A stretch of 64,000 nucleotides of DNA from Paramacrobiotus metropolitanus (lineage: Eukaryota; Tardigrada; Eutardigrada; Parachela; Macrobiotidae), in assembly GCF_019649055.1 (NCBI RefSeq), contig NW_026570230.1, positions 1 to 64,000 of the forward strand, read 5' to 3'. The position numbers and the translations under genes were made by a program. Each line of letters begins with the position of its first letter. The stretch's first letter is position 1. The notes below the pieces were generated by a model that ran no database searches, was not told the DNA's origin, and saw only the letters and a program-made list of their open reading frames with translations. This document shows positions 30,215 to 53,288 of this stretch, piece after piece.

Positions 30215-30218
30215 CACC

Positions 30219-30792
30219 TGTCGTGTATAAGCGTTCACGCCGGTTAAGGCTCCATGAACAATCTTTACTCTTCCACGCCTGTAATTGTCAGTCGGTAGGC
30301 ACTCGTACTCTCAAACTGTAACAGAAGAACTATGGTGGAAATAAGACGAACGATTCAGGAACACGGGAACTCAGGAATCCCTCAGGAACGAGCTAACCAC
30401 AACTTCCGGTCGTAAGTCCTGTGAGGATCGGCAAGAGCTAGGACAATTGTGTCACGAGCAAACCTGTATACTAAGCGATAATCCGGGAACAACTATGCAC
30501 TTCAGTAGGAACAAGTATTGCTGTCTCTTTATCCAATTCACATCACAGTTCACAACGCTAGGAAATTGTAATTAGAAGCAGTCTCAGAAGTAAATCTCAG
30601 ACTACTGATTCCGATATTAGAAGTAACAAGAACTTATATAGACTTCGAGTTATGACATCATATACACCGCTAGTAAAAGAGAACAGCAAATCACAGAAGA
30701 GATTGACTAGATTATCGGTTATGTTGCAGGTGGAAGGCGGACAGTCAGCATCCGTACGTACATCCGGCGTGTGATCCTACTCCCACACGTCA
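30219..30792 (-). repeat. 3' LTR of the giant element
   Basis: 574 bases, TG...CA, identical by eye to 52,582-53,155. On the transcribed (minus) strand a TATATAAG box lies at 30,633-30,640. The terminal CA at 30,791-30,792 is followed inside the element by the G-rich tract. Confidence 0.95.
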
Positions 30793-30803
30793 CCCCCACG
30801 AAC
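30793..30803 (-). promoter_or_regulatory. Polypurine-like tract before the 3' LTR
   Basis: On the minus strand GTTCGTGGGGG abuts the TGACG start of the LTR. It is short and not pure purine, but it is at the position where plus-strand priming occurs, and the same 11 bases recur twice inside the element (47,118-47,128 and 47,301-47,311). Confidence 0.5.
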
Positions 30804-31453
30804 GATGCTTGGCCGTGCCAACGTAAGCAATCCATCCCGCAACATCCCAGTGCGATTGTGCACTTCCATCCATCCTGATCCCGATCCACCGCACAATCCA
30901 CGCGTCCATCCGATGCCCAATGTGACTGTACGCCGCGATTCCCAGGGAGTTAGTGTGTGGAATCCTTGGCGAAGAGGCATCCGGAAGTCCACGGGTTTGG
31001 CAGGGCGGAGGTCCAAGGATCCAGGAAGGCGAACTATGAATTACTAATACTGTGCCGTTTGAGTTTAGATAGTGTTTTGTATGTACAGTATACGGCATAA
31101 AGCTTTATTAATTGTGAAACTAAAATCTTAAAATGTGATTATGTGGAATTCTGTAGAACTATGCATTAAACGAACGGGACCGCGATAACCAACAACCAGT
31201 AGTATTCTTACGAATTCTCGAGTACTACATCATCCAGTAACAACGGTCAACAACAACAAACAAGCAAAAATATCCGCATAAAAATCATGAGCACAAATTA
31301 CTGGTAGATGAGAGCAAATTTAAACCAGCAAAAGAATATCAGTAGCAATAAGATCAACACGGCTTTGGTAAAGCAAAATCATTAGACAACACCAGGCCAG
31401 TAAAAAGGCGAGATCAAAGAAAGCAAAAGATCAAGGACAAAGGTGAGTCAAGG
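30804..31453. other. 3' untranslated part of the giant element
   Basis: Between the last accessory ORF and the 3' LTR. It has no credible gene. Confidence 0.4.
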
Positions 31454-32242
31454 TTACTTGCCAGCACTGGGAGCCAATGAAAACAAACCGGTGATACCAG
31501 AGCCAGACGCAGCAGCATCCAAACGGCGAGAAACGTCAGCAGCCATCTGTCGTCGGCGATCGGCATCCAATTCCCGCTGCTGTTGCTGAGCCAAATAACC
31601 AGGCACAAAATTATGTTCGGCAGAACCAACGGGACCGGAAGGCGCAGACGGCGCACGAGGACGATCAGCCGGGGAGCGGTCGCGGGCATCGCGGACAATC
31701 GGCACTTCAGCAAGTGGCAACACATTTGGTGGCAAACCCGGAAATTCAGCGTTAACCTGGGCGTGCACAGGCGGAATTGCAGCCGGGGGGACCACAACTT
31801 CTAAGGCTGGCGGGCCATGTAGATGGACAGCAGGGTTGACAGCATCGGGCTGACCTGGAACCACAGCTCCGCCGACTTGGCCCTGATTCGGTGCAATCGC
31901 CGCTTGGTTTCCCGGGTCATCAACCTCCATGTTTGCGGGGGCAGCTTCCACTGGTGCAGCTGCGTGAGGAGCTCCATCAGGTACTTCAATAATCTCCGGT
32001 GCGCCCAGATGTCGCCCATTACGACGCCAGTGATCGTTTCCGCGACGGAGATTATTGTCTCCAAAATTCCTATGATTTCCTCGGCCGTACGGACGAAAGT
32101 TGCCACGGAAAGCACCACGGGCTCCACCCCTTCCTCGGTGATTATAACCGGCATTATACTGCTGTTGCTGCTGGTTGGAAGACGAATGAAAAATAGCGTC
32201 TACCAATTTATCGAAAGCACGGTTAGGATCGATAGGCGGCAT
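31454..32242 (-). CDS. RGG-rich accessory protein, 262 residues
   Basis: Intact frame from ATG (MPPIDPNRAFDKLVDAIF). Residues about 30-80 are Gly/Arg/Asn-rich with RGG/FRG/GRG motifs, typical of RNA-binding proteins. The rest is Pro/Ala/Val-rich, with a Gln-rich helix (LAQQQQRELDADRRRQM) near the end. A polypyrimidine tract and AG (TTTTCTTTAG) lie 10-20 bases before the ATG, a likely splice acceptor. A second nucleocapsid-like or RNA-export function is possible (inference). Confidence 0.6.
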   Translation of the reverse strand: MPPIDPNRAFDKLVDAIFHSSSNQQQQQYNAGYNHRGRGGARGAFRGNFRPYGRGNHRNFGDNNLRRGNDHWRRNGRHLGAPEIIEVPDGAPHAAAPVEAAPANMEVDDPGNQAAIAPNQGQVGGAVVPGQPDAVNPAVHLHGPPALEVVVPPAAIPPVHAQVNAEFPGLPPNVLPLAEVPIVRDARDRSPADRPRAPSAPSGPVGSAEHNFVPGYLAQQQQRELDADRRRQMAADVSRRLDAAASGSGITGLFSLAPSAGK

Positions 32243-32768
32243 GCCCAGACTAAAGAAAACTAGTGACCTTAAACGCTAGAAGTGTAAAGAGGAAAAGCGT
32301 CAAAATGACAGTCTACACACAGTGAAAATCCAGCATGCCAGAAGGCCGAAACGAAAATCTACAATGCCGATTTCTGCACACTACACGCAGGCGATTTTAT
32401 ACCGATCTGTCGATGTAAAACTTAGAATGCGGCAGATTCCATACAGGTAGAAGAGCAACCAATCAGCGCTTCGCGCTATATCCTTTTAATTCAACGTAAT
32501 CAAAGATCAGATCTATCCAGGTATAACAGAAGATTCAGCACCGATATCTACAGCGCAGATACAAATACTAACGACCAGTTCATTGACTCAGAGCGCATAA
32601 AATTAGAAAAATAAAATTTGATACAGTAAAACACAAGATTCCAGTCACACTCCATAATACAGAATACAATTGAGATACAGCGCTGAAAATCGTTGAGATA
32701 ATACCAAACCGACCAAACCACAAGGAACAAAAATTTAGGATGACGGAGCACAGCTACGGACGATCGTA

Positions 32769-33380
32769 TTACAATTCATCCGAGTGCGGCTGCTGCAGTA
32801 AATTATGGCTAGCAGGAGTAACAGGTTGAACAACTACCGGAGCAACATACGGTGGCTGTTCCTCAAATTCGGGCGAATCTTCCCGCGGAACAAACGCAAT
32901 CGGGGCCACAACAACCGATGGTGGAAGAACGACAGCTGGCTGCAGTGATGGCAGCGGGTCAACATCCATTTTTTCCAGATCGGATCCATCATTGCCATCA
33001 CAATCAACTTCCATATCAACGTTCTCATCAGCTTCGACATCGGTACTCTGATCAGGGGATAAAACGGCCGAAGGATCCTCACGATCTTCCCAATCATCCG
33101 AAACGGAAACTTCACTTGGCGCAGAAGACGAGGACGGCGAGACCTCCTTGTACTTGCGCTTTTCGCCACGAGTGCGAAAATAATACGGGCCGGCGGCTGA
33201 AGTTGAAGCCTGCGGTTCAGCATTTTCCAGGGCACGAGCATCAACAATCGCTCGCCGCGCAACCGCATCCGCCTTCTGACGCTTGGCGATTTCTTGAAAC
33301 AAGGCAACAAAAACAGGATTTAAATAAAGATACTGGCGTCGTAATTCTAAGGCAATAGCTGTGGGCAAGTGATCTGACAC
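32769..33380 (-). CDS. Acidic accessory ORF overlapping the spliced gene
   Basis: About 203 codons with no ATG at the start (GTG at 33,380), overlapping the previous frame by 34 bases in the -1 direction. It begins LPTAIALELRRQYLYLNPVF, then has a KR-rich cluster (RTRGEKRKYKEV), then long Ser/Asp/Glu and Pro/Val stretches. It resembles a transcription-activator-like disordered tail. Expression by frameshift or by an unseen splice is needed. Confidence 0.5.
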   Translation of the reverse strand: MSDHLPTAIALELRRQYLYLNPVFVALFQEIAKRQKADAVARRAIVDARALENAEPQASTSAAGPYYFRTRGEKRKYKEVSPSSSSAPSEVSVSDDWEDREDPSAVLSPDQSTDVEADENVDMEVDCDGNDGSDLEKMDVDPLPSLQPAVVLPPSVVVAPIAFVPREDSPEFEEQPPYVAPVVVQPVTPASHNLLQQPHSDEL

Positions 33381-34382
33381 AAGTCATAACGATTTATGAG
33401 AGATCCATTGGTACACAAAAAGCCAGATAAATATAACTCCGAATAACGAGGATGAAAGCGGTTAAGGCCAACAAAATATGCCTGCGAAATAACCACATCC
33501 TCGCCATTCTTGTTTGCAATAGCCATTCTTGGAAATACTCCGGAATGCGCTCGTTTGCGCGCCGTCTGTTTGGTCTTAAAGACCGGCCGCGGTGCATCCG
33601 GGTTATACGGCACATAGAGGATGCCACCTTTGCGCAGATGCTCTTCGTCTACAGACGGTTGAAAAGATAATAGGCACAACCGTGGGTTAACCCTAATTAA
33701 CTACAAAAACTCACAGGGAGAGGAGTAAAACAAAATGAAATGACATGGTAACCATTACCGCGTACAATAAGGGCTGTGACAAGGGACGCTTGGACGAAAA
33801 ACGAAAGTACCACAAGTGGGGTTAAAACATGTGAGAAACCACATTACAGGAAGACAACAGTAAACATAACGGTAAACAGATAATACCTCGCTTTGCGCGC
33901 ACAGACGGAGTCTCAGAAGATGATGGCTCTTCCTCCGTGAGATCCGGAGTACCCAACAGTCTCTCCGCCGTCGTCTGCAGTTTCTTCGGTGACGGCTGAC
34001 GAATCTCGACGTCAGGACTAGCAGGAAATGATCCTCGGCGGGCACGGCGGCGAACCACAGCAGCGTTTCGTCGAGCAATGGAACGACGCTTTTGCTCACG
34101 ATAACGGTTCTTCAGGGCATCAACAATTGCCTCCGTCCGACTGGTGGAAGGTTTGGGACTTTTTGCTGCACTCCGACTCCCCGATGGTCCAGGAGATTGA
34201 GCCGAAAACACTGGCTGTGCAGATGTACGACGAGAAACTCGAGCTCGAGTCACTCTGCTGGAAGAGCGAGCTTCATCGCTATCAGGCGAATAACCGAAAC
34301 TCAGTCCCGTCATTGCACGACTTGGGCGCGGCGTGCGCGATGCAGTCTTTCGTGCAGTTGGCTTCTTAGCAGAAGGAGACAT
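33347..34382 (-). CDS. Spliced accessory gene: basic N-terminal exon plus second exon
   Basis: Exon 1 is 33,887-34,382 from ATG (MSPSAKKPTARKTASRTPRP): very basic, Ser/Arg/Pro-rich, chromatin-protein-like, with ERLLGTPDLTEEE near its end. A donor (G|GTATTA) and acceptor (GTCTGTAG) remove a 238-base intron and join in frame to exon 2 (33,347-33,648), reading DEEHLRKGGILYVPYN, then DVVISQAYFVGLNRFHPRY, and ending PQLLP. A sense-strand intron in an LTR element implies subgenomic splicing as in retroviruses. The next ORF (33,380-32,769) overlaps its end in the -1 frame and may be the continuation. Confidence 0.6.
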
Positions 34383-35006
34383 TGTGAAAAGGTAAAAATG
34401 ATAAATTATAAAAACACAGGGAGAATAGGATACTATCGATGCCAACAAATTCGGAGAATTGAAGAACTGGAGTGCAGAGAAAAATCACAACAGATAATTT
34501 CAACTGGCACCGACACCGAAAACTCAAAATTCACTGAGTATACCACCAGGCGGTTGACAGGCGACAGACTGAGTTTTGCGATTTTTATTCCCACTTTCAC
34601 CATTTGCCATAGATCACAATGAATACCGCTTGTTTCGTTGAGGATTTGTAAATTGCAACCACAAAAACCAAATTTTAATACAAAATACAAATCATAGTGA
34701 TTAAAAGGACTCGAAGAAGGAAAGCCAAAGCCAAAACACGCGGCTGGGAAATATTCAGAACACAGACCGGAAACTGCGCAGTTTCCGATAGCAATGCCAT
34801 ATCAGGGCGGCTGACAAGTGACAAAATGCCGCATCGCAGGCACAGAAAATATTAGCTGTTCTTCACTAAAAGTGAAAGTGAAGGACCCAACAATATCAAT
34901 TTTATCCTTTTTGCGGTGACGGGTTACTGTTTCTGTTATTACTACATTGCTTTTCTTTCTGTTACATTTTAATTCGTTATTTTACTGAATCATCATATCA
35001 GCGCAG
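34383..35006. other. Divergent promoter region between sense and antisense genes
   Basis: About 600 bases separate the leftward basic-protein ORF (ATG 34,382) and the rightward antisense gene. No long ORF is credible, so it is a plausible bidirectional promoter. Confidence 0.4.
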
Positions 35007-36346
35007 CCTGTAGGACCAGCTGGAGAGCCACTACCATCGCCCGAAACGGACGCAATTGAACATGCTCGATATTGGAAAGAGCGAACTCGCGAATCGATCC
35101 AGTTTGCCATGGCGGAGCCTTTATCAACGAAAGAAACCACGCAAAGCCGTCGGCAATTGGCGATGCATACCGCAGCCCATGCTTGCATTTTGGAAGCAGA
35201 TATTTGTGGTTTTTACGTGGATATGGCTTCCGTCAAACAGTTTATCATCGACATGCACGACGATTTCACAGCTGATCGAGTGGACTTCTTCCTCGGCGAT
35301 GCGATCAATGCCGGAATCCTACTGAAGAAGATGTCTCGCGACGGACGCTTTGTGCTCGAAGTGGCCGAAGAAGTGCACAAGAGCCGCGATCCCGAAGTGA
35401 AGGTGATCGACACATATGGAAAATTTCGCCGGATGGTTCGTGCTATCCTGTATCATGGCCGCTATGCAATGTCACGGGCCGAAATCCAACATTGGGCCTG
35501 CACTTACGACGTACTGCTCGAGGATCGCGATTACTGGCTCGAACGGGGCTTACGCCGACTGGTGAAGGAGAAGCACGTCGTCGTAGTTTATGGAAATTTG
35601 TTTGTCGATAGCTGCATTGACTTGTGGCTGCGAAGCATTCGCGGATGCTGCCTTTGTAACACACTGGCACAAACAATCAGTGAGTGTTTCTATGTTTTTT
35701 CGAAGTGTTTCTCGTATTTACACATTTATGTCGGGAATTTTATGGCTAATTTGTGAATAATGTGCTCATAAACTGTAGTAATCTAAAACCATTTGCAGAT
35801 ATGAAGATGGGCACCATGAAAGTCGTAATCAACGGAAAAGAAACCGAGCAACATGTGACAGATTGCAGTTTTGGTTTCGTGGGAGAGGATGTTGATTTAG
35901 TGGTTGACGGCGTAATGGAGCGGTTGGACGCAATTGAGCCATCCAGGAATAACACGACTAACAAGAATTTGGTGATCCGAGCCAGCAAGGACGGGCGAAT
36001 TGAAAGAGAGCCAATTATTACTCTCACTCAGCTGAAAGCCACGGGCGGCCGTCCTAAATACGTTCCCCGATCGAAAAATACGGATACCGAAAAGAAAAGC
36101 CAGAAGATGAAGGAGAAGGCTGAACGACCTGGCGCTGAAGTGAGCGCTGCTGAACCGGATGCTATCGATAAATTACTGCAACAGGTTGAGCGCGAAAAAG
36201 ATATTATGGACAGCTGCAAAGCGCTGGTAAACACGCTGAAGGCACGAGCGACGATGGATGCCAAACACATCGCATACATCCGCGAGGCGCTGGAGCAGCG
36301 TCTAAATAACTTGAAAATCGCCAGAGATAAACTGGATCTGGACTAG
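35007..36346 (+). CDS. Antisense two-exon gene inside the giant element
   Basis: It is coded on the strand opposite to gag-pol. Exon 1 is open from a splice acceptor near 35,001-35,006 (first ATG 35,109) to 35,679; exon 2 is 35,799-36,346. The join at A|GTGAGT ... TTTGCAG|AT keeps frame, giving 372 residues from the ATG. Residues about 100-165 look like a winged helix (YAMSRAEIQHWACTYDVLL, LVKEKHVVVVYGNLFVDS). Exon 2 has a small beta-rich part (TMKVVINGKETEQHV), a basic linker and a long C-terminal coiled coil (DKLLQQVEREKDIMDSCKAL). It suggests a dimeric nucleic-acid-binding protein (inference). I do not recognise the family. An upstream exon may exist. Confidence 0.7.
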
Positions 36347-36777
36347 ACAGCGACGTTGTAATACGCCTTGTTTTCCAGCAGCTGTCTGATAGTTGTGCTC
36401 TGAAATTCAGCCGACTGTTATTTCTTCCGTTTAATCTCACTCCTGTTGGTTTTATAATTCTCATTCATACAGATTCTCATATAGTCGTTAACTGTGCTGG
36501 TCGGACAGATCTGTTCTAATCCGAGATTAATTTGGATTTATGTAGGATTTTAATAACCGGAATAAAATCGGTGTAGGAGTATACGCAGTCGCAGCCGCAG
36601 TAATTTCCGATATAGAATGGCCAATTAACAAAGTAAAATCAAATATCGCACCCGTAAGCGTGAATCAAACGCTAAAAACAATTTTAATATTCCATCAAGG
36701 AGTAAGGTTACAGGAATCACCACAGACAAGTAAAAAGAAAGGAGAGAAAGTCTTAAAGCTTGCAAAATTTGTATTCA

Positions 36778-38285
36778 CGCAGGATTGAACCTTGCATCTA
36801 GGTGGACAACTAAATCCTGCTCTTGCCCATACGCTAGCATGGCTATACCACATTATGCTTTTAATTTGGCAATCACCGGAAGCGCTGAACTACGAAAATT
36901 CACACTACGACGGGAATTCACAACCATGGCCGCAAATAGGTTTAAATTTTTCACCGTCACCGCGGCTATAAAATTCATTCCGTCAACGGCAATATTTTCA
37001 GAATAACAGTAATAAAAACACAAAAGGAAAAAGAATAAGGTTTCAGAAAATGCATATTAATTTCAAGGGGTTTCGAACCCGCAACCTTCATTGCACCCGT
37101 TGTTGTGGTTCAACAGTCCAGGGCACTACGCCACGACAGTCTACGAAATTGAACTTGTAATTCGCTCATCGGAAGTGATCGTAAAATTAGCCGTCTCGAG
37201 GCCAACATAATGCTACATATTGGTATCAAAATATAAAACCCAAAAAGGAGGTTTTAAATTAAACGAACTAACTTTCAGGGATTTGAACTCTAGACTTTGT
37301 AAGAAGCGGGTCGGTATGGATTGTCAGTCTAGCCACTACGCCACAAGGTGCTCTATGCTAAAGCCGAGTTAGATTTAACACCGGAAGCGCCATGTCGTGT
37401 ATATTTAACCTGACTGCAATAAGGCACTAAACCATTAACTCCTCATCCCACAAAGGTACAAAAATATAGGGCAGAAAAATGTAGTTTTACACATGCAGCA
37501 TGCAACCCTGAGATTAGGACCGGCCGTTAAGGAGGTAGTACATGAGGCGAATGGCCATCATTCATAGCCACTGAACTACAAAGTCATTCGTATACAGACG
37601 AACAGACGGCCAAGTGCAATGTCAACCATAGAGTATGCATACAATTCTACGCCCAGCTCTTTGAGTTCAATTCTGATATTCTGGAAACTATTATCAACAG
37701 TTTTCCCAAGGCGAAAACAAAAATATAGCACGAAAAAAGTAAGCTTCTCAGAAAATGCAAATTAGTTGTAAGGGACTTGAACCCGAAACCTGTTAGTTTC
37801 CCCGTTGCTGTAGTTCAACAGATCTTCCTACTACACTACGGAATTATCTACGGCGAAACTTTTGAATTCACACGTCGGAGGGGAGCATAAAATTACAACG
37901 GTCAACAGCAATGCATCTTCGACGGTATTGCAGCAATATAAAAACATAAAAAGGAAATTTATGAAAATGCTTTTAGATTTTTAGGATTAGAACCCAAGAC
38001 CTAGCGGAGGGTCGTCCAGTATTAATTTCCTGACTGGACCACTACACTACGAGAGTCATCGGCAAAAATAATACTAATAACACAGCTTGCAGTGTTCATT
38101 TTGACCCCTCTCAACAGCGATTCACCCAATATTCCCCATATTAAGTCCCACGAATAAAAATATAACGATTCATGAGATAAAAACCAAAAAGAGGGACATT
38201 TACAAAATCGCGTTTTTATGTAGACTGGAACCTCCGACCTCCAATGACGAAGCAACGGAAGCCACTACTATACTAGCGGGGTCGC
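36778..38285 (-). repeat. Tandem array of seven tRNA-like units
   Basis: On the minus strand seven units at about 210-290 base spacing each have an A-box-like segment (for example GTGGCGTAGTGG, CGTAGTGTAGTGG, TGTAGTTCAGTGG). About 45-65 bases later comes a B-box/T-arm segment (GGGTTCGAAACCCC, GAGTTCAAATCCC, GGGTTCAAGTCCC, AAGGTTCAATCC). Units: 36,778-36,850, 37,064-37,143, 37,274-37,349, 37,497-37,590, 37,766-37,848, 37,979-38,060, 38,219-38,285. The anticodon regions differ and acceptor stems do not pair well, so these are tRNA-derived, not standard tRNA genes. The boxes are RNA polymerase III internal promoters in real tRNAs. Flanks share CGGAAGCGCC in several units. Confidence 0.75.
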
Positions 38286-38837
38286 TCTACGCAAAATCCT
38301 GTTTAACGGAAGCGCCAAAGGCGTACATTGACAACAATCCATAGTGAATGTGCCTGTGGCCTACCCACCCGAGTGATCAGCTGCATGGAAACCGGTACGG
38401 CATCCCAACGAAAGTGTAGTCTCGTGCGGTCGTGCGTTACACTGTTCAGAATTTACCAAAAAACAGCACGGACGGTGACTACTTAGACTTTATTTATTTC
38501 GCAACTCGCATAGTAACCAAACGTCAAAAGTGTCTTGTGTAACGAAACGCAAAAACCATAATGTACCAGCTAAACGGTGTACAACACGTGTGGTGAAACG
38601 CAATCTGAATAAAGGAGAAAACTAACCGTAAAACAATAAAAATACAAGATAAAACGCTGCGCTAGATCTACAGTATGAGATCTCTAAAAAAGAGGGACAT
38701 AAGTGCACAAATAAAAGCGTGAAAGCAAAGGGGATCATACGCGTGAAGCGATGTTTCAAACATTTCGCACAAAATACCAGACATTCTGACGATAGTGGGC
38801 AAAAATCCACCTCCAAAAGTCCACCACTGATGCGACA
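38286..38837. other. Spacer between tRNA-like array and accessory ORFs
   Basis: Only short ORFs and AT-rich sequence; I see nothing definite. Confidence 0.4.
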
Positions 38838-39448: not shown

Positions 39449-39615
39449 TTTTAAATATCAACAGCGCAGCAGCTTTAAAATTGTACACGATTATGCGTGC
39501 CACACTGAGATATTATTAGAGACGCACAAAAAGGCAGAAAACAACGAGAGATTCAAACAAAAAGGCCGATATAGTTTAAATCATCCCGCCGTTTCTTAAA
39601 AATACAAACGGCCGA

Positions 39616-41024: not shown

Positions 41025-41089
41025 TGCAGCGGTATATCAGAAATTGTCAGCCGTAAAATCCGTGTAAAGAAGGAGCAAATTCGCACAAG

Positions 41090-41969: not shown

Positions 41970-44900
41970 TCAGGATAGCCGGATCTCTATTATTTTAGCC
42001 ATACGCTTTTTACCATCAACCGACGGGTCTCTTTTGCGTTTTTTGTCGTTCATCCGGTTAATAAATCTCTCCACAGGTTTCACCACACGCCCGGAGCGGG
42101 TTTTAAGCAATGGAACCGCTTCCATCTGGTTATCCAGATATTCAGCATACTCAGCATCAAGGCGCGACGATGCTGAGTCCATGGACGGAATCACCGGCGG
42201 CGGCGCGGGCGCCTCAACCAATTCATCGGGGCATTCCTTCTCCACACAGTCGAGCAATTTCGGTAAGTGCTCGTCTTGTAAAATGGTATCAACGTCGCGG
42301 AAATTATACGGTTTTAGGCGGCTGACATGGACTGTGTCAGTTTTAACGTTCCCACGCCTATTACTTTTTACTACATAATGCACTGGCCCTGACTGACGCA
42401 CAATTTCCCATCCAGCAGTCCAACGGGGCATAAGGGATGGATTCTTCCCCACTTTCCGATGTAACACGTATACCAAAACTTGATCTCCCGGTTTATACGA
42501 TACATGTGAGATACTTGCATCGTAACGAATTTTGTCCTTAAGCTTATGGCGAAACTCTTCTGCATTCACCAAGTCCAGGGCCTCACCAAGGCCGCGCTGC
42601 ATCTGCTGTACATATACGTGAGCGGGAATCACGAAATCCTCTTCAAAAGGCAGGAAATTATTTATCGGTAAGCGCATCTCGGTGCCATGCATCATGAAGA
42701 ATGGTGTGCGGCCCGTTCGCTCCACAACTTTGCTGTTAAAGGCAGCACAAAGTGCTGGGAGGAATATATCCCAGTCACTTTGCTGTTCATTAACATACTT
42801 CGCTAGCGCCTTTTTGATTTCCCCTACGCGTTTTTCGACAAGTCCGTTGCCCTGCTGGTGGCCTGACGCCGTCGGTGCGTGAGCAACCCCAGCGAGAGCG
42901 AGAAGCTCTCGAAACATTTCAGACATGAAATTACTGCCGCGGTCTGAGGTGATGTGTACAGGCATGCCAAAGACTGTCAGTATGCGACGATAAAAGAACA
43001 ACGCCAATGTGGCAGCGTCATTTCTCTCAACTGCCTCTGCGACTATATATTTGCTCCCGTAATCGACAGCGATTATTATGTTTTTATTTCCAGATTCCGT
43101 CGTTGGGAGGGCCGGAGCAACGTCAATTGCCCAAACTAACCGAGGAGGGACGGTCGGGTTTGACTGCAGAGCGCCGGCCGGAGCCGTGGCAAGAGGATTT
43201 TGCGCAAGGCACGCCGGGCAAGAGGCACAATAATTTTTAACAGACTCGAACATACGGGGCCAATAAAAATACTTGTACATTCTTTTATAGGTGGCTAAAA
43301 CTCCCAAGTGTGCCGCTAATGGTGAGTCATGATTATCCTGAAGGAATTGAAGGCGCCAGTGCACGGGCACATACATGCAATAGTAAATTTTCCGGTTTAA
43401 CTCAAACTTGTAGTATACAACGCCCTGTTTCACCACAAACTTGTTTAGATGTAATTTCTCGTGCTCTGACATTTTTTCCTTTTTATTTTCTAGGAGCAGT
43501 CGCCATCGGACAATCCGGGCATCGCGAGACTGCTCCTCAGCCCAGTGTGAGGCTTTGTCATCCGTAATCAACTTTTGAACTTTATCAGCGTCAAAGGCTT
43601 GCATGTCCTCCTGGGAGACTGCCTTCACTTCAGCCGACATCATTTCGAACCGGATATCCACATAATCTCTCTCCAAAACCGCAAAGCAACATTCAATCAT
43701 CGCTGCATCACCGGCAAAAGGGTAAGTTTGCCGATAGTCAAATTCGATATCCGAGTCATCCGAGTCGGGTTCCGGTTGCTCTCCTGGATTTCTGCTCAAG
43801 GCGTCAGCAATAACGTTCTCTTTGCCAGGTATGTGAACAGGTTTAGTGTTAAATTGCTGGATATACAACGCCCAGCGCCCGAGGCGGCCAGCGGCATCGC
43901 GCATATTATTGAGAAAGACCAGCGCCTGGTGATCAGTTTGGACTTCAAACTGATAGTCTGACAAATAATGCTTCCACTTCTTTAAGGCACAGATAACCGC
44001 GTAAGCTTCAAGCTCAGTAGGGAAGTACAGTCTTTTCTGTGTTTCAGTCAACTTGCGGTTTAGATACGCGATAGGACGCCAGTTCGTCGGCACATCAGTC
44101 GGTTTATCCCGCGGGCACTGCATAAGTACTGCCCCCACAGCGATAGTACTAGCATCCACGATAACTCGCGACAAAGCCTCAGGGTCATAACGGGCCAAGA
44201 CCGGCGCCGTCACCAAGGACTCCTTCAATTGCTCAACAGCCCTACACTGATCCGTTCCCCATTCAAAGGTAACTTTTTTAGGAATTAATTTTTGGAGCGG
44301 CTCCGCAATCTCTTGAAAATTCTTAATAAATTGGCGATAATATCCTACCATGCCTAGGAACCGTAATATGTCTTTTTTGTCTTTTATAGGGCCAAATTCT
44401 TTAACCGCCTGGATCTTCTCTGGATCCGTGCTGATACCGAACTGATCAACTGTATGACCTAAGAACGTTATTGAATTCACAAATAATTCTGTCTTTTCAG
44501 GATTAGTGGTCCAGCCGCATTCCTGGAGCCGCAGGAAAAGCTCCTGTAAGTCTCGCATATGATCAGCCAGGTTTTTACTGAAGACAATAATGTCATCAAT
44601 AAAAACCAACACGTTTCTCCACTTCATGTTCGCAAGAGTCAAATCCATGGCGCGCTGGAAAGCCGAAGGCGCGTCCTTCATTCCAAAAAGTAAGACTTTA
44701 TATTGAAACGTAAACTCTTCTCCCACCATCGTTGTTTTACACCGGTCTTCTGGTTTGATTTTTATTTGCCAAAAGCCACTTTTTAAATCAATTTTGCTAA
44801 AGACCGTAGCTTTATCGAGGGCATTTAATATGTCGTCAACTCTGGGAAGCGGGTAACTGCTGCCCATTAATCTTTCGTTAAGCTTACGGAAATCCACGGT

Positions 44901-46864
44901 TAAACGCCGGGATTTATCCTTCTTTTTTACGATGCAAATAGGACTTCCCCACGCCGAATTTGTTGGCTCAATAATACCGTCTTTAATCATTTCCTGTGTT
45001 TTAGCTTGGAGCCATTTTCGATCTTCAAACGATGTACGGTACGGAGGAGTTCTAACCGGCAAACTTGTGCCTGTATCCACGGAGTGCTCATAAATGGTAC
45101 AACATCCCACTGGACGCGCTTTAGTCGGTAAGACTGACTTTGCCTGATAAAAAATAGCTTTCAATTCATCCTTGCTGGGACAGATATCACCAACTTTAAT
45201 CTTTGCGAAAGTTTCCTCTGTTTCAGGGTCAACAGTGACAGGAGCGGACGGCTGCGACTGCATCGCCACACATTCATGAATTTTCTCCGGCACAGGAACG
45301 CCCTTGACATCACTGGGAACGCCACTAATCGCTTCTTGACAACTCTCCTGGAACTCTGGAGAGTCCATCTGATAGACCGCATCGACAAGCGCGACTTCAC
45401 CCAGGTTAGTTTCCTCGTTCAAAACCAGTGGTTTATCGGAAACATTAACGACGCAGACTCTACAATTACCGTACTCATTCAGTGTTAGAACGCCATCCAG
45501 CAGCACAGCATTTTTATTTGTTTCAGGAATTTTTCCTTCGTAGAGAAATGGCTGAGTATATAAATACTCATCCTGGAATTCCATAAATTGCTCATCGGAC
45601 ATAGACGTCGTAGCGCGAATAATTCCCTGCGAATGGGGCTGAATTATCACCGGAGAAGCCGGAAACAGTTCCATTTTAAAACAATCGATCGGACCGGGTT
45701 CTGGTTCGAAGCGGTAAATATCATGTTCTACCGAATTAACTTCAACCTGTGCTTGCGCTTGTTTCAGATGGGCGTCTCTGTACGCCAGTTCGATGACATC
45801 CTTCGAGTACACGCATGCTGGGATATCTGTGGATTCACGGACGTCCTGAGACCGTTTGGGCAAGTTTTTAGCCACCGGCAACTGCTGAACAGGGACTGGT
45901 TGCACAGTTTCGGCCGACATTTGGCTTGCAGCCTCGCACTCTGCGTATTCTCGTCTTATTCTACGACTGTAGCTGGACTTTTTACGCCTGGGAGAGCTCC
46001 TTCCCGAACCTTCCGGTGATGGTTCGTAATTTCCCACAGTGGGTTGTGCTGGATTAACAGCTGCAGATTCACTCAGTGCCTTCCGTTTCTGAATTTCGTT
46101 CCAGATTTCCCACTGTTCGTTGATGTCGACATCTACAGGGGAGTCGTAAGATGCCCTGACTGCCGGAGGAAGCAAATCGGACATTTGGTCACTGATCAAC
46201 TTATTCTCCTGCGGTGAGTTACCAATTAATTGGGAGTTTATTTCTCTTTGCTTCTCCGCCTGTTTATCTTCGTAGGAGGTCGGACACGGGCCGATATTGA
46301 TAGGCTTCATGCCGTCAGCGGGAATAAAGCTACCGTTTTCGAATTCACCTGCTGGCGCCGGGTTATCCACAGAAAAGGTAACCTTACGTTTTCCTGTAGC
46401 TTTCTGTGCGTGTAATTGCTCCGTGCGTTTCAAGGTTTCAAAATGCCGGCGGTCATTCACTGAATTTCGGCAAACGTCGCAGTTCTTTTCGTAACGTTCG
46501 ATTTCGATAATACAATCAGGCCAATAAAATAATTTCACTAAATACGGATATAATTTTTCATGCCGGCCATACGCTTGCTTATGAATTAAAATCTCGTGGA
46601 AGCAGGCGATTAATTTCTGTCGCCATTGGTGCGGCACGTAAATCCGTGGGCAAGCGCCGCTATGATCAGGTACCCTACACAATATTCCTTCACAAATTAC
46701 GAATCTGTTAATCTCATATTTGGTAAAATTCGTATTAGCATGTGACGGCTTTTTGTACATTTTGTACCACATCCGGCTATCAACGCACTGCTGCTGAGTT
46801 TCGCGCCAAAACTGTGGATCTCTGAAACGTTGCTCCGAGGGAAACAACTGTTTGTCCTGTGCCT
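41970..46864 (-). CDS. Pol polyprotein: zinc finger, RT, RNase H, integrase
   Basis: One open frame of about 1,625 codons without a clear ATG (numbers from 46,847), so it is expected as a Gag-Pol product after frameshifting. Residues about 1-135 resemble an integrase N-terminal region with an HX4H and CX2C zinc site (HEILIH, CDVC). RT is at about 575-790 (LTVDFRKLN; active site VFIDDIIVF, F replacing the usual Y). RNase H is at about 880-1,000 (VDAS, TDHQALVF). The usual integrase zinc finger follows (HDSPLAAH, CASC near 1,207), then the DD-35-E core (AIDVAP near 1,240; TSDRGSNF near 1,304; GNGLVEKR near 1,340). A GPY/F-like module lies near 1,480. Ty3/gypsy order. No stops, so probably functional. 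Confidence 0.93.
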
Positions 46865-47995
46865 ATCCATCGGCGTCATCCACTTCTTCAACTCTGGATT
46901 CCGTGCCATGTAAGACGGATAATCGTGGGTTTCATCGACGTCTCTGCGGTCGCGCTCAACAGGTATAACATTAAGTAATTTATTATCCATACTCAGACAT
47001 TCCACCGACTTTGACGATTTGTCTAACACGCCCATATACAAATATTTCGCAGCCGGATGCTGCTTCAAAACCGAATCCATTGACGAAATTTGAATCGGAA
47101 GTTGTAGGGAATCGTCACCCCCACGAACTAGACTGGAGCCAGAATTAGGCACAGGACTGACCGATGCCGAAAACGAGGTACTTGAACTGCTTGCCGGAGA
47201 CGGCGGCAAAACTTTTTCCTTTTTAATTGGCGGCTGAGGAGACGCTTGTTCTCTCCCCCGCGAACTTAACTGCATATTACTTACAATTATTTCACCGCCT
47301 CCCCCACGAACTTGACTTGGTTCTGGGTTTTTCTCCGTCTTAATTTCCTTTTTAATTACAGGTTTGACCGGTTACTCTGCTACCGAGGCCGCTCTCGGCA
47401 AGTATTGCCTGATCATTTCCTGGACTACACTTCGCCCAAATTCCTCATCACGCTGATCAGATCCCTTTTTAATCGGAGCTACCTGAACTGGTGTAGTTTC
47501 TTTAACTTCCGTTTTCACCGGGGCATCAGCCACTTTTGTCACTGGTGGCGACGGGACTGGACGCGGCCACTCCTGCTTAGCCTTTTGTAAGTGCAGAATA
47601 CAGATTTCTGGATCAGCCTTTGCTAGAATTAAATGAGCTGACTCATATGGTACAAATTTTGCTTCTTTAGCGACACCAATGCGCTCTGTTGACATCAACG
47701 CGGGAATTGCGGGTGACGGCTTAACTCCCACTGGAATTAGCGGATCAAAATCGTGCGAGCGGATAATATCCGACATCAGGTGAGTTTCGCGACGGAAGAA
47801 TGCCGGAGCATTAGGCTGTCTGCGCGAGAGACGCCACGTCATAGTATTCATATCTAAAATAAAAGGCTTTGTAGCTAAAAAGTCTAAACCTAAAACAACG
47901 TGGTCCCTATCGAAAGTGGAACTCACAAGAACTGCGTGCTCAAAAGCCATCCCGAATTCATGGATGGGCATCAAGCGTCGGCAACAGGCACACAT
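46697..47995 (-). CDS. Protease-like frame of the giant element, interrupted by one stop
   Basis: The frame runs from 47,995 to 46,697 with a single TAA at 47,372-47,374. The first part has a retropepsin-like second half (HVVLGLDFLATKPFILD), but I cannot find the catalytic D-T/S-G motif before it; the frame is closed just upstream by a stop. After the TAA the same frame continues (KKEIKTEKNPEPSQVRGGG) into a Ser/Pro-rich segment and a region YLYMGVLDKSSKSVECLSMD. Either protease needs stop readthrough and frameshifting, or the copy is damaged, or protease activity is supplied in trans. Confidence 0.6.
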
Positions 47996-50900
47996 GATCC
48001 GCTAGAGGATACTGCGAAAAGTCCTGGACTTCCATTTTGTTGCACTGCGGCGTCGGAGAAGACAAACCAGCAGGTAAGTCCAACTCCATCATGTTTATTT
48101 GCTGCTGTGGATTGTTGTATCGAGCCAACAATTCTGCAGACGGCTCATACTGTCGAGGAAGAACAAATTGATTTGTACACCCGGCAGCCGGATGAAGACC
48201 ATGACAGCGGAAGCAGATTTCGACACCGCGATTTGTGCGCCATTTATCTTTCAGGATATTTCGTTCATCAAATGGAGGCTGGCTACCCGCCTGCTGATTT
48301 TGCCGATAATTTTGGTTATTTTGCTGACGATTATTGTTGTTGTTATAACCACCGCGTCCGCATAAATAATTATTATTATTTCGGTAATTTCCACGATTAT
48401 TACCGCCATTATAATTGTTGTTATTCGCAGGGCCATCCTGTTGGTACTGTGGATCAAAGTTCTGAACCGGTTGCTGAAACTGCGGTTGCATAACTGGCAT
48501 CATCGGATTCATCATCTGAACTGGGACAGGCATAGGAGCCTGCATAGGAATTGGCTGTGGGAAGGTCTGCGCAAATTGTACCGGGTGTTGTTCAACGAAT
48601 GGTGGCTGTGAATACACCGGAACTGGAACAAATTGCGGCTGGGGAACATTCAGGACAGGTTGGATTGGAGCCACTGAATTCTGCGGCTGCGGAATCACCG
48701 TTTCCGTATACGAACGTGAATATCCACCGCGATTGTTGCCATAATTTCCGCGGCCTCCCCGGTTTGAATAATAATTTGCTCTTTGAGACGAGCCGCCACG
48801 GCCGCCTCGACTTTCATAATTCGAATTATTATTATTATTATTACCAGCGCTTCTGGGCTCTGTAGGAGCATTTTTCTGAGTTGATTCAGGTGTCTTCTTA
48901 TCTTTATTCATTCGCTTCCATAACTTCTCGCACTCCTGCAGTTTCTTTTCAAATTCCGTGTAATTTTTAGGCGCTGCATTATATATCTCGCGGAACCACG
49001 CCGGTCTGTGCTCCTGAACGCCTTCTTGGAGTGCTTCAACCTGTTCCTCGTCGGATACTTTTAGTTCTCCGAACCACGGGAGAAAGCTATCCAGGTAAGC
49101 ACGAACAGGCTCATAAAACTCCAATTTGCGATTATTCATTTTCCGACGAATATCGGCTTTAGAAAGAGAGCCGTTAAAATGCTCTACAATAGCCGGCTTA
49201 AAGAAATCTGACCACGATTTGCCTTTATTGTCTTTCCAGAATTTTTCAAACCATTGAAAGGACGGCCCGGTGAATGCACCGATTACTCTGCGACACGTTG
49301 TTTCATCATTCCAGTTATTCGTGGCTCTGCATTGTTCAACATTCATGAGCCACCTTTGAATTTTTTCTGGATGAGCGTCATCAAAGGCAAGTAATTTCAT
49401 GCCTCCCATCATTTTATCACCGTCTTTTTCAGCAAATTTCGCCAATAGTTCAACAACGCTTTCCTGTGTAAGCGTCGTTCTATCCGAAATTTGAGTCTGT
49501 TTAATCAGCCATTCCTCCAGCTGGGGATTTCTGGACGTAGACTCATTGCTGGCCGTGCTACTGGGGCGACGGTGTTCGTCTTCCAGTAGAATATCATCCC
49601 CAAATTCGTTTTCTGTATCTGAACTATCCCTGTGTTCAGATCCACGCATCGGGCGGCCAGAGTCATCAGCTGTTCTTTTTAGAATTTCCTGCCGTAAGTC
49701 TGTTGGCTTATTTTTCTTTTGTTTGACAGGTGCCGTTTCCTTGAGAATTTGACTCTCTGAGGACGAGCGAGGCATGGAGTGAGCCTCCGAAAATTCAACT
49801 CGTGCTTCCTGTCTGGGTCTCCGCAAAATACCAGCTGGATTACTGCCAGTAGGTAACGGTTGTTCAACAGATGATGAGAAATTCTGTGGATTGAAGAGTG
49901 AAAATTGCGGAGGACATAGCACATCTCCCGTCGCTACAGGGGGTTCCCTTTGAAAATGTCTTTCATTGCCACTATGAGTGACGCCCGGATTTCGAAATCG
50001 GAGTAGCTCCTCGGCCGCTTGTTTAAGATCATCTTCCATTTTGGTAAGTTGCTCTTGCTTTTCATACCATTGTGCCCTAAGCTGGGTGTTTTCTTCATAC
50101 AACCGATTACATTTGTCCGCTTTCTCATAAGCATCTGCCTGTGCTTTATTCTTCGCCTGAGTCGCATTCTCACAATTATCACATTTTTTATTATTTTTAA
50201 AATCATTTAACTTCTTTTGAGCTTTCTTAACATTTTCCCGTTCCGTATTCAACAAGCTCTGTAACCTTTCAATTTCCTTTTGGGACAAATCATCCTTTTC
50301 CTTAGGAATATGCATCGGGCCGACCGAAGACTTATTGTTGAGCTGAACTCTCACATGCGTGAGATCCCGTTGAAGGGACTCTTCAGCGTCTTTAGCCCGC
50401 TTCTTTTCATCGTCCAAATCTTTGGTGAGTTTTGTGGACAAATTCTGCTCATCAGTCAGTTTTTTATTTGTGACTTTGTGCGCATCTTTTTCGGCGGACA
50501 AATCCCTCAGTGCTTTATTCAGTTTTTGGTCTAAATCAGCAATTTGTTTTGCTGTGTCCGGTGTTGGTTGGGCATTGAGACCATCAATTGTAGCTTTCGC
50601 ACTTGAAAAATCTCTCTGAGCGTCTTCCAACTGTTTTTCCAATTTACGATTCGTGTCTGTTATGGTATCGCGCTCATCTTTCATTGCATTAAATGCGACT
50701 TCCGCATTTCTGTTGGCTTGTCTTAAACCATGCAGATTATCATTCGCAATGCGTATTTCGTTGGCCAATCTGTCATTTTCTATTTGTTCATTTTCAAATT
50801 TAATACGCATTTCATTGAAATCGTTTTGGAATTTCAATTTTTCATTTCGTTCCGCATCGACGCGAGCGTCTAACGACACTGTATTACCCATTTCATCAAC

Positions 50901-51794
50901 TTTTGATTTTGTAGATGCGATGAGCGTGCGGAGGCTTTGGATCAATACGGGCATAGTTTGCCGAACTATCAAGCCCACGTCCTGGTCAGTTTCTGCCGCA
51001 GCTAACTGCTCATCTACTTCCCTAGCTTGAGTAAGAAAGTCCTCATCTGGTTGTTCAAAATCCTTTTCCGACACAAAGCTATGTAATTTTAGTTGTGCCG
51101 GGTGGAATGTCATTGTTCCACCGCGAATACTTTTACTTGCTCTTGTTTCAGATCCCTCGGAGATATCCGCTTTATCCGCAGCCGACAGCGCTATCAAGTT
51201 ATTGTCCGACTGGGACGACTGGGGTTCTGTCTGGCTCTCGGCCACGCTTGGAGTTTCCGATATGGGTTCATCCAGTATCGCACCGGATGCCTGGGCTGGA
51301 ATTCTCTCCTTGGCACCGCGCGTGACGCGCTCATTTGCTGCCTGTTTTTTTGGAGTTTTTCCGGTTGCTTTTGACGCTGTAAGTGCGGCTTGGGCCGCCT
51401 CTCTTCGTCTATTCAAATCTTCCGTGTATTCTGGCAGCCACCTATTTGCATCCTGCAAAGCCGCTTTAAACTGCTCATCCGTGATGTCCAGGTAAGCTTC
51501 AGGGATACATCCCTCGTACTCAATCCAAGGTTTAAAATGTGTTGGTAATCTCGTTTTGGAATTTAAGTACCGTCTGATTTCCTGGTAGTCAATCCATGAC
51601 TTTCCACAGAATGCATCTGGTGCTTCTGGTGGTTCAACGTTAAGAGCAAAGTACATCAAATTCAACGGAATTTCTTTTGCGTTGAATTTGAACCTTGTCT
51701 GAGCTCTCGACCCATCGTACGCCCCAATAATCACTTTATTATCTGGGATTTTACGCGGTGGTGGGCGATTTCTAGGAATCGGACCGCCCGACAT
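47958..51794 (-). CDS. Gag polyprotein of the giant element
   Basis: 1,278 codons from ATG (MSGGPIPRN). Residues about 265-600 are a long charged coiled coil, followed by a linker and the retrotransposon gag domain at about 820-960 (motifs NWNDETTCRRVIGAF, FEPVRAYL-type segment). An Asn/Gly/Arg/Gln-rich nucleic-acid-binding region and one zinc knuckle near residue 1,195 (CFRCHGLHPAAGC) complete it. Structural particle protein. Its end overlaps the protease-like frame (47,995) by 38 bases and it is in the same frame as pol, though separated by more than 1 kb. The coiled coil before the gag domain is also seen in the left element's gag, so the two belong to related lineages. Confidence 0.88.
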   Translation of the reverse strand: MSGGPIPRNRPPPRKIPDNKVIIGAYDGSRAQTRFKFNAKEIPLNLMYFALNVEPPEAPDAFCGKSWIDYQEIRRYLNSKTRLPTHFKPWIEYEGCIPEAYLDITDEQFKAALQDANRWLPEYTEDLNRRREAAQAALTASKATGKTPKKQAANERVTRGAKERIPAQASGAILDEPISETPSVAESQTEPQSSQSDNNLIALSAADKADISEGSETRASKSIRGGTMTFHPAQLKLHSFVSEKDFEQPDEDFLTQAREVDEQLAAAETDQDVGLIVRQTMPVLIQSLRTLIASTKSKVDEMGNTVSLDARVDAERNEKLKFQNDFNEMRIKFENEQIENDRLANEIRIANDNLHGLRQANRNAEVAFNAMKDERDTITDTNRKLEKQLEDAQRDFSSAKATIDGLNAQPTPDTAKQIADLDQKLNKALRDLSAEKDAHKVTNKKLTDEQNLSTKLTKDLDDEKKRAKDAEESLQRDLTHVRVQLNNKSSVGPMHIPKEKDDLSQKEIERLQSLLNTERENVKKAQKKLNDFKNNKKCDNCENATQAKNKAQADAYEKADKCNRLYEENTQLRAQWYEKQEQLTKMEDDLKQAAEELLRFRNPGVTHSGNERHFQREPPVATGDVLCPPQFSLFNPQNFSSSVEQPLPTGSNPAGILRRPRQEARVEFSEAHSMPRSSSESQILKETAPVKQKKNKPTDLRQEILKRTADDSGRPMRGSEHRDSSDTENEFGDDILLEDEHRRPSSTASNESTSRNPQLEEWLIKQTQISDRTTLTQESVVELLAKFAEKDGDKMMGGMKLLAFDDAHPEKIQRWLMNVEQCRATNNWNDETTCRRVIGAFTGPSFQWFEKFWKDNKGKSWSDFFKPAIVEHFNGSLSKADIRRKMNNRKLEFYEPVRAYLDSFLPWFGELKVSDEEQVEALQEGVQEHRPAWFREIYNAAPKNYTEFEKKLQECEKLWKRMNKDKKTPESTQKNAPTEPRSAGNNNNNNSNYESRGGRGGSSQRANYYSNRGGRGNYGNNRGGYSRSYTETVIPQPQNSVAPIQPVLNVPQPQFVPVPVYSQPPFVEQHPVQFAQTFPQPIPMQAPMPVPVQMMNPMMPVMQPQFQQPVQNFDPQYQQDGPANNNNYNGGNNRGNYRNNNNYLCGRGGYNNNNNRQQNNQNYRQNQQAGSQPPFDERNILKDKWRTNRGVEICFRCHGLHPAAGCTNQFVLPRQYEPSAELLARYNNPQQQINMMELDLPAGLSSPTPQCNKMEVQDFSQYPLADHVCLLPTLDAHP

Positions 51795-52564
51795 TTTGCC
51801 TTTATTTTAAAATTAACCTTTGCGGCTAATTAAAATATTATATACAGCAGCGATTGTGCTACCGTTTCCGACAAATACCGTTATTGCTATTGTGCAATAA
51901 CAATCACGTCCCAATCCTCCTTTGAGGTTTGAATTGTTCAGTGATAGTTTAAAGGCAGTCGACCTTTGCGGTTTCGACTGCAACAAATTCGAAAATTACA
52001 CTGCTGCACTTTGCGTGCTACTGTAATTTAAAATTCACAGGTCAATCACCGTTTGCCGGTGTTTACCTTTTTTCACGGTCAACTCTCTCTAGCTGCTGAT
52101 TTTGGCTACCGCTTGCGGCTTGCCTTTATCAGTCTTGCTGGAGATCGTTATCTCACCTGGCCAATGACAATGGCTCGGTGCTCACTATCTGATTTATCTG
52201 CAGGCCAGGTGCACTGACACTGCTGATTACGCTTTATTCACCGCGGTTACTGCTTTGCGCAGACAACCCGGAAATTACCCACACCAGACTGAACTTTTCA
52301 ACACAGCCGACCTTTAAGGTTTCGACTGTTTAATCCTACGGTCCAACTTAATTAAATTTAATTTAATTGGCGAGGAAGCTCACCAGTGAGGAAGCTCACA
52401 ATTGCGAGGAAGCTCGCTAAAAATAAATTAACTAGGCCAGATCAGGAACGCTGACCTCCTTCGGCGTACCTTTGCGGTTCGACGCCTTTCAAAACGGACC
52501 ACTTCTACAGTAAATTACCATCAAACTTTCCACCAATAATTTTGTTACATCGGGAAAATTAAAA
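51795..52564 (-). other. Leader of the giant element with repeated short motifs
   Basis: This is untranslated sequence between primer site and gag ATG. A hairpin-forming word (plus strand CGACCTTTGCGGTTTCGAC and variants) occurs at 51,959-51,979, 52,307-52,329 and 52,465-52,484. GAGGAAGCTC occurs three times at about 52,372-52,425. Leaders of such elements carry packaging and dimer signals; that role is inference. Confidence 0.5.
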
Positions 52565-52581
52565 GACACCGGTGGGCGCCA
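52565..52581 (-). promoter_or_regulatory. Primer binding site of the giant element
   Basis: Directly next to the 5' LTR the minus strand reads TGGCGCCCACCGGTGTC. The first eight bases are those of lysine-tRNA primer sites in many retroviruses and gypsy elements; the rest differs, so the tRNA is not certain. Confidence 0.7.
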
Positions 52582-53155
52582 TGTCGTGTATAAGCGTTCA
52601 CGCCGGTTAAGGCTCCATGAACAATCTTTACTCTTCCACGCCTGTAATTGTCAGTCGGTAGGCACTCGTACTCTCAAACTGTAACAGAAGAACTATGGTG
52701 GAAATAAGACGAACGATTCAGGAACACGGGAACTCAGGAATCCCTCAGGAACGAGCTAACCACAACTTCCGGTCGTAAGTCCTGTGAGGATCGGCAAGAG
52801 CTAGGACAATTGTGTCACGAGCAAACCTGTATACTAAGCGATAATCCGGGAACAACTATGCACTTCAGTAGGAACAAGTATTGCTGTCTCTTTATCCAAT
52901 TCACATCACAGTTCACAACGCTAGGAAATTGTAATTAGAAGCAGTCTCAGAAGTAAATCTCAGACTACTGATTCCGATATTAGAAGTAACAAGAACTTAT
53001 ATAGACTTCGAGTTATGACATCATATACACCGCTAGTAAAAGAGAACAGCAAATCACAGAAGAGATTGACTAGATTATCGGTTATGTTGCAGGTGGAAGG
53101 CGGACAGTCAGCATCCGTACGTACATCCGGCGTGTGATCCTACTCCCACACGTCA
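52582..53155 (-). repeat. 5' LTR of the giant element
   Basis: 574 bases, TG...CA, matching the 3' LTR. The minus-strand TATATAAG at 52,996-53,003 is the likely promoter, giving a U3 of about 160 bases. The CACC duplication follows at 53,156. Confidence 0.95.
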
Positions 53156-53288
53156 CACCTGTTGTTCCACGAGCAGTCGCTGTCGTTGATCTTAACCAAC
53201 GGAAGCCAGATTCCGAGCAGGGATTGTCCATATACTTGTGTCCTTTTGCAATGCTGATGCTTGCTCACAGTCACTGCTGCGGCTGTCG

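Follow-up and report, generated by a model that had tools for sequence, protein, structure and literature searches.

The stretch of DNA analysed here (the window) is the first 64,000 nucleotides of contig NW_026570230.1 of the tardigrade Paramacrobiotus metropolitanus (RefSeq assembly GCF_019649055.1), and positions 30215-53159 contain a very long element bounded by long terminal repeats (LTRs). It is probably a giant, Ty3/Gypsy-like LTR retrotransposon that inserted recently and belongs to a multicopy family, and whose internal tRNA-like array would consist of RNA polymerase III (Pol III) units transcribed into trans-acting RNAs. The element moved as a unit, and its cargo is intrinsic to the family and not a one-off capture.

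Element ends, genomic copies and a sister family

The ends of the element are organized as follows:
30215-30218, no strand: left target-site duplication, CACC (from the sequence)
30219-30792, minus strand: 3′ LTR, 574 bp, identical to the other LTR
30793-30803, minus strand: G-rich (polypurine-like) tract ahead of the 3′ LTR
52569-52581, minus strand: primer binding site (PBS), 13 nt, complementary to tRNA-Lys(CTT)
52582-53155, minus strand: 5′ LTR, 574 bp, identical to the other LTR
53156-53159, no strand: right target-site duplication, CACC (from the sequence)

The element is oriented on the minus strand, and the 5′ LTR is therefore at 52582-53155 and the 3′ LTR at 30219-30792. Base-by-base alignment shows the two LTRs to be identical at 574/574 positions; they have TG...CA termini, are flanked by a 4-bp target-site duplication (CACC), and enclose an internal region of 21.8 kb. 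The primer binding site, TGGCGCCCACCGG, follows immediately after the 5′ LTR and is complementary to the 3′-terminal 13 nt (with the CCA) of two tRNA-Lys(CTT) genes in the same genome, and a G-rich tract, GTGGGGG, lies before the 3′ LTR. The element thus has the full set of LTR retrotransposon features (a TG...CA LTR pair, target duplication, primer site and polypurine-like tract), and gag-pol, the accessory open reading frames (ORFs), the tRNA-like array and the antisense gene are all located between the two LTRs. A prior sequence-only reading of the window had described identical LTRs with CACC outside both and the primer site and G-rich tract inside, and had proposed a single, recent insertion; the alignment and the 4-bp duplication bear this out, and its size estimate, some two- to fourfold that of ordinary Ty3/gypsy elements or retroviruses, also holds. 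No empty site was found in this assembly, in which the joined host flanks match only their own two halves.

The genome searched for further copies comprises 169.8 Mb in 533 contigs. A kinase ORF flanking the element has Ramazzottius varieornatus as its best named match (73% over 41% of the query), with two unnamed matches scoring better and a mite following at 36%; this single gene points to a tardigrade host, against an initial reading as a nematode. Among the best 40 of 185 candidates scored with the LTR probe there are 13 LTR pairs, 11 of 20.0-24.2 kb (among them the window element) and two shorter ones, at 5.3 and 9.9 kb. Array unit 6 (best 40 of 57 candidates scored) lies within 11/11 long pairs, spread over 10 contigs, and within 0/2 short pairs. 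All eight pairs for which both outer flanks were read have a 4-bp duplication, each different (CACC in the window, and ATAG, TTGG, GGGG, CTTG, ATCG, ATAT and GTAT), and within these eight pairs the LTRs differ from each other by 0-4 bases, with 8 gap columns as well in one pair. The 30 LTR loci read include no solo LTRs: the primer site comes after 15 of them and the G tract before 15. A probe for the third H2C2 module of the element (41380-41994; best 150 of 365 candidates scored) identifies at least 63 places at ≥60% identity, with rows counted by hand.

These copies refute in substance the proposal that the structure is a nested insertion or a misassembly between two separate LTRs. That gag-pol is interrupted despite identical LTRs could point to assembly errors and so to such a history, which is nevertheless barely credible given that 11 pairs spaced 20-24 kb apart, on 10 contigs, enclose unit 6, and given matched 4-bp duplications in all eight tested. 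The search for other full copies with the same cargo, as suggested in the sequence-only reading, also found no long LTR pair without the array among the LTRs scored, and the refuting outcomes named in that reading did not appear. The description of ~10 kb as captured cargo did not survive: the accessory region is normal, old family content, as unit 6 is present in 11/11 long pairs, the accessory genes are under purifying selection and a sister family has the same gene order. Capture by one copy is ruled out by unit 6 in the long pairs, by the long H2C2 frames and by the sister gene order.

Several copies are rearranged. The 5.3 kb pair (C90) looks internally deleted because both element ends are present; in the 9.9 kb pair (C39) the 5′ end was read and the 3′ end was not. 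A 20.3 kb copy (C129:83954-104275) has lost ~4 kb of pol while still carrying the array and those accessory ORFs that were tested; it is a candidate non-autonomous derivative. The window copy is itself a derived member of the family, without ~1 kb of the accessory region, with one tRNA-like unit fewer and with an interrupted gag-pol frame. Between copies the LTRs are 94-97% alike and the LTR plus adjoining 1.5 kb 87-94.5%, while inner synonymous sites mostly give synonymous divergence (dS) of 0.3-1.7; the element ends may be homogenised by recombination between copies.

Two elements on contigs C9 and C13, ~89% alike, form a sister family. They have no BLASTN match to the window element, their H2C2 modules are 40-41% identical to that of the window, and by tblastn their proteins are 31-49% identical with the same gene order: accessory ORF 40197 at 33-34%, the antisense gene (also antisense there) at 32-33%, and after it ORFs 33825, 33350 (C13 only) and 32772 at 35-49%. 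The four other accessory ORFs, the second antisense ORF included, have no tblastn match in the sister family. The C9 element is 26,071 bp in length, with two identical 600-bp LTRs, a GTAT duplication and the same primer site. In the window element the 5′ leader (52350-52430, minus strand) contains, by eye, three successive hairpins with a CTTC loop (GCGAG-CTTC-CTCGC type), and in the sister-family leader one hairpin stem is altered on both sides (by eye); the trio looks like a putative packaging or dimerisation signal.

The tRNA-like array

The array and an associated motif are located as follows:
36781-38275, minus strand: array of seven tRNA-like (A box/B box) units, at 38275-38222, 38049-37984, 37838-37773, 37578-37497, 37343-37279, 37133-37069 and 36836-36781
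37378-37402, minus strand: 25-nt internal near-copy of the LTR-end/PBS junction, unchanged in 14/14 aligned copies

The tRNA-like array noted in the sequence-only reading is far above chance, the term resting on A and B boxes. Seven A-box/B-box pairs are present in 36601-38450 on the element strand, compared with a mean of 0.07 pairs (maximum 1) in 500 dinucleotide shuffles of the window array; there are none on the opposite strand of the array and two in the rest of the window. The pairs are counted by B boxes, two being the poor ones of unit 4, and unit 7 comes from a looser pattern, giving seven units. Thirteen other arrays, chosen from genome matches to the cargo, have 4-7 pairs each and none antisense; in seven of these, two units are present where the window has one (38049-37984), and some copies total eight units. 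Over 90-290 nt, unit 3 matches unit 6 at 68-81%, which shows that duplication took place.

In a 14-copy alignment of the array, with core limits set by eye, 431/567 core columns are invariant versus 701/1,493 others (Fisher p about 1e-33, although adjacent columns do not vary independently). In each of the eight unit types average conservation exceeds that of the 60-nt flanks, and the best-conserved parts are the A boxes, the B boxes and the stretch between them. A run of at least four T begins 14-39 nt after the B-box pattern in 69/69 unit copies tabulated (nine of u1, seven of u2a, 11 of u2b and 14 each of u3, u5 and u6, with units 4 and 7 left out), the copies being related. An A box and a B box at tRNA-like spacing, as found in the array, are the arrangement expected of a type 2 Pol III promoter, and the units look like Pol III genes, not cloverleaf tRNAs, the transcription being predicted from these motifs.

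An array occupies the corresponding position in the sister family, and in both families it is placed between the sense genes and the antisense one. Three sister units are above threshold (shuffle means 0.01-0.08, maximum 1 of 100), the remaining 8.6 kb having one hit per strand at the loosest threshold, and two further, weaker units are seen by eye. The first strict pattern gave one sister pair only, and the unit-7 A box was put into the matrix after the sister sequence was seen.

The internal near-copy of the LTR-end/PBS junction has an alignment score of 36 or 38, versus ≤26 in 200 whole-cargo shuffles, and its pattern occurs at 44 genome places. It is not a plain second primer site, because the tRNA-complementary part is altered. 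It is situated ~48 nt upstream of an array A box. The sister family has a similar copy of its own junction at a different location, with a score of 27 versus a best of 26 in 300 full-length shuffles, a narrow margin that makes it suggestive. Internal junction copies lie at about 4917 and 8596 in the sister sequence (L070), and by eye the window copy, the sister copy and a weaker third in the sister array all precede an A box by 48-50 nt. Candidate roles are those of an upstream promoter element and of a site for strand transfer or packaging, neither of which fits everything. Two other interpretations were rejected: a promoter element of the small nuclear RNA (snRNA) type, since four U6 genes were found without it (by eye), and a source of short LTR-joined insertions, since 44/44 pattern matches carry 2-3 mismatches and none 0 or 1.

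Several results count against Pol III units within a set of functional accessory genes. A T run within 39 nt is found at 45% of random array places and 24% on the other strand of this AT-rich stretch, so that the observed runs are a modest excess over chance. The B box of unit 4 is poor, and neither ARAGORN nor Rfam identifies a tRNA in the element. RNAalifold gives no cloverleaf fold among the array units, and double changes at three pairs in unit 2a, one in unit 6 and none in six units; because these are few, a conserved RNA fold of the units is unsupported. Among the coding regions described below, one stop is present in the ORF of the other copy in 6/37 comparisons, the accessory ORFs have no Pfam domain above cut-off, and the first antisense ORF has no match in 5.8 billion proteins (in a search needing shared exact words) and an unusable structure model (predicted local distance difference test score, pLDDT, of 36).

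Some of these observations would suit an array that acts as DNA, with clustered TFIIIC/TFIIIB sites forming a boundary, insulator, integration or recombination signal and any RNA being a by-product. Conservation is highest in the A and B boxes and the intervening stretch, the RNA fold is weak, the T runs are in modest excess only, and a boundary would be useful between sense and antisense genes, where the array lies in both families. However, the entire A-to-B core is conserved and the T runs follow the B box at comparable distances from unit to unit, and TFIIIC binding alone needs neither a conserved core nor T runs; a DNA function is thus unlikely, if still to be taken seriously. It is very unlikely that the array is a relic of tRNA pseudogenes or short interspersed elements (SINEs), inserted or duplicated and carried passively. 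Such a relic would agree with the duplication of units 3 and 6 (68-81% alike) and with the loss of units from some copies, the window included, but not with cores more conserved than flanks in 8/8 units, with 57 unit-6 candidates for a family found at no fewer than 63 H2C2-probe places, or with an array in the same place in the sister family. Canonical tRNA genes were ruled out, as ARAGORN and Rfam find none, and an abundant dispersed SINE was ruled out by the total of only 57 unit-6 candidates genome-wide. An origin of the array from the 5′ leader was also rejected, the leader giving only weak box scores.

The genomic RNA would be transcribed by Pol II, starting from the LTR, and copied in the manner of other Ty3 elements. 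In the array, Pol III would transcribe each unit separately, giving short RNAs of some 80-130 nt. By analogy with viral Pol III RNAs, these may act in trans, most likely on the host small-RNA or tRNA-processing machinery. The window copy may have been mobilised by proteins of intact relatives, or its frame breaks could be assembly errors. More tentatively, with chances that we put slightly below even, giant LTR elements of tardigrades have a set of Pol III small-RNA genes of their own, retained since two families split and equipped with an upstream LTR-end/PBS copy, with the RNAs serving replication or countering host silencing.

Gag-pol, accessory and antisense genes

The gag-pol region contains:
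47958-51806, minus strand: Gag-like ORF, ~1,280 amino acids (aa), with a coiled coil and an Asn/Gly-rich C-terminal part (by position)
47372-48001, minus strand: protease-like ORF (from a motif only; no Pfam match)
41970-46862, minus strand: pol ORF, 1,630 aa, with an N-terminal H2C2, reverse transcriptase (RT), RNase H and integrase (H2C2, D-D-35-E)
41383-41994, minus strand: third H2C2 module, C-terminal piece (ratio of nonsynonymous to synonymous divergence, dN/dS, 0.11-0.20)

The ~1,280-aa ORF is taken as Gag by position only, having no Pfam gag match and just weak coiled-coil matches below cut-off. In the protease-like ORF, DHVVLGLDFL is presumed to be the protease motif, with no Pfam support. 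The RT of pol carries FIDD and the integrase has a D-D-35-E triad. The closest solved relative of pol is the Ty3 Gag-Pol (E 7.5e-94), followed by 'Enzymatic polyprotein' (6.7e-51) and retroviral entries (1.4e-31 or worse); the 120 protein matches listed are 28-41% identical and from mixed hosts, and no relative of pol or of the antisense protein was found in viral contigs. From the RT-RNase H-integrase order and an RT closest to that of Ty3, the element is classed as Ty3/Gypsy (Metaviridae)-like.

Three related H2C2 modules are present in the element, in the integrase, at the pol N-terminus and at the C-terminus; similarity to the third is 26% at E 7e-14 and 21% at E 3e-8 in a comparison of these pieces alone, and the C-terminal piece has a sub-threshold Pfam H2C2 match. 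In four other copies the stop-to-stop frames holding the third H2C2 are 3,444, 3,517, 3,537 and 3,538 aa long, approximately the window span from gag to H2C2; elsewhere in the family the H2C2 frame is shorter (≤2,516 aa). Because these four lengths match that span, intact copies seem to have one giant gag-pol frame of ~3,500 aa, with the module as its C-terminal part. The "extra zinc finger" of the sequence-only reading seems to be this C-terminal part, not extra cargo. In the window the gag-pol parts are in different frames and the protease-like ORF stops at a TAA (47372-47374), the frame being open again in 46697-47371, such that the giant frame is interrupted; the break is either natural or an assembly error.

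The following genes lie between the third H2C2 module and the 3′ LTR:
40197-41036, minus strand: accessory ORF, 280 aa (dN/dS 0.08-0.11), with a sister-family homologue
39619-40083, minus strand: accessory ORF (0.10-0.18), upstream part missing here
38841-39149, minus strand: small accessory ORF (0.03-0.13)
35750-36346, plus strand: antisense gene, second ORF, 198 aa (0.06-0.19)
34989-35753, plus strand: antisense gene, first ORF, 255 aa (0.06-0.13), with an antisense homologue in the sister family
33825-34484, minus strand: accessory ORF with a basic N-terminus (0.17-0.26)
33350-33700, minus strand: accessory ORF (0.05-0.15)
32772-33383, minus strand: acidic accessory ORF (0.23-0.27)
31457-32275, minus strand: RGG-rich accessory ORF (0.16-0.26)

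From the region between integrase and 3′ LTR, ten ORF pieces (counting the C-terminal H2C2 piece) were set against pieces of the other copies fetched, in 2-6 comparisons each and 37 in total, with tblastn pieces of <45 aa excluded from dN/dS. All 37 comparisons give dN/dS of 0.03-0.27, with dS between copies of 0.19-2.6 (mostly 0.2-1.7, a single comparison reaching 2.6), and from these ratios the accessory genes are judged to be under purifying selection family-wide. The antisense gene reported between the LTRs in the sequence-only reading corresponds to two conserved plus-strand ORFs, which are among the most strictly constrained (0.06-0.19). A segment of ~1 kb between 40056 and 40194, including the upstream part of the gene of ORF 39619-40083, is absent from the window and present in all four copies read (C93, C10b, C55 and C129). 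ORF 39137-39457 was dropped as an eleventh accessory gene, as it is not conserved among copies.

Accessory genes between pol and the 3′ LTR give the element a retrovirus-like complexity, and a sister element has identical LTRs, as might be expected of an endogenous retrovirus that is or was infectious and has an envelope among its accessory proteins. The Pfam scans reveal no env domain (~1 kb of other copies and remote folds being outside these scans), and the sole ORF with membrane-like helices by eye, 39137-39457, is the one not conserved; an endogenous retrovirus of this kind is very unlikely.

Relation to known elements

Giant size is already known, from Burro and Ogre (PMC6431247). Burro, of planarians, is a giant Gypsy-like element with an internal region of up to 25 kb and a total of >30 kb, and the tardigrade element resembles it in its Gypsy-like pol, very long internal region, unusual extra domains, accessory ORFs and giant polyprotein, as far as the available text describes it (PMC6431247). 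The Burro polyprotein differs in having env-, BIR-, BCL2- and other domains, and that text mentions no tRNA-like array and lacks the word tRNA (PMC6431247). No BIR, BCL2-like, MATH/TRAF or other Burro extra domain is found in the Pfam scans of the window (E up to 1). The plant elements Ogre, Retand and Grande are likewise of the Gypsy lineage, the length of Ogre being owed largely to LTRs of 1.9-6.5 kb (excerpts of PMC6431247 and PMC11963269). Retand and Grande have a long region from pol to the 3′ LTR with antisense ORFs, often with tandem repeats in Retand; according to the accessible portion of that source, the Retand internal region is 7.4-12.9 kb with antisense TRP28 and repeats of 8-100 bp, whereas here it is 21.8 kb with a different antisense gene and tRNA-like units (PMC11963269). 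Neither antisense ORF matches PF04195 (TRP28) in Pfam at E up to 1.

Helenus, Ajax and Cassandra (TRIMp3) are LTR elements with Pol III promoter sequences from small-RNA genes, and animal Helenus also makes 4-bp duplications; as described in the available sections, they are short and non-autonomous with one tRNA- or 5S-like sequence in the LTR, in contrast to an internal array with gag and pol (PMC10886601). Unlike in TRIMp3, the window LTR has no A/B pair by the strict pattern. The TMER genes of murine gammaherpesvirus 68 also contain tRNA-like units and are Pol III-transcribed, transcription of the tardigrade array being predicted; in the text available each TMER consists of a tRNA-like sequence and one or two microRNA (miRNA) stem-loops, in a DNA virus (PMC7773990). 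No tRNA cloverleaf is recognised in the array, and no search aimed at miRNA hairpins was made. Cer1 of C. elegans is far smaller, about 9 kb. It is similarly Ty3/Gypsy-related with a family-specific accessory protein (CERV), and differs in that its available text has no array or antisense gene (PMC10309623).

DNA viruses are known to have Pol III RNA genes (PMC7773990, in the part available). The conserved tRNA-like array with an LTR/PBS-like element inside an autonomous-type LTR element appears to be new: no report of a conserved Pol III-type array in a gag-pol LTR element, or of this family, was found in a literature search that left subscription journals mostly uncovered, and the word "giant" is absent from the accessible text of a curated tardigrade repeat paper (PMC11071193). 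If the proposal is true, a conserved set of Pol III genes within gag-pol LTR retrotransposons would add a new level to the way in which retroelements express their genes. A retroelement of 23-26 kb can be copied and integrated in a 170 Mb genome, its conserved accessory ORFs are now open to functional tests, and the many copies in one genome provide material for studying the recombination of such elements.

Elsewhere in the window, 1390-9799 (minus strand) contains a coiled-coil gag-like ORF (1,619 aa) and an aspartic protease and looks like part of another LTR element, and an imperfect palindrome of 117 bp (83%) is located at 60101-60217.

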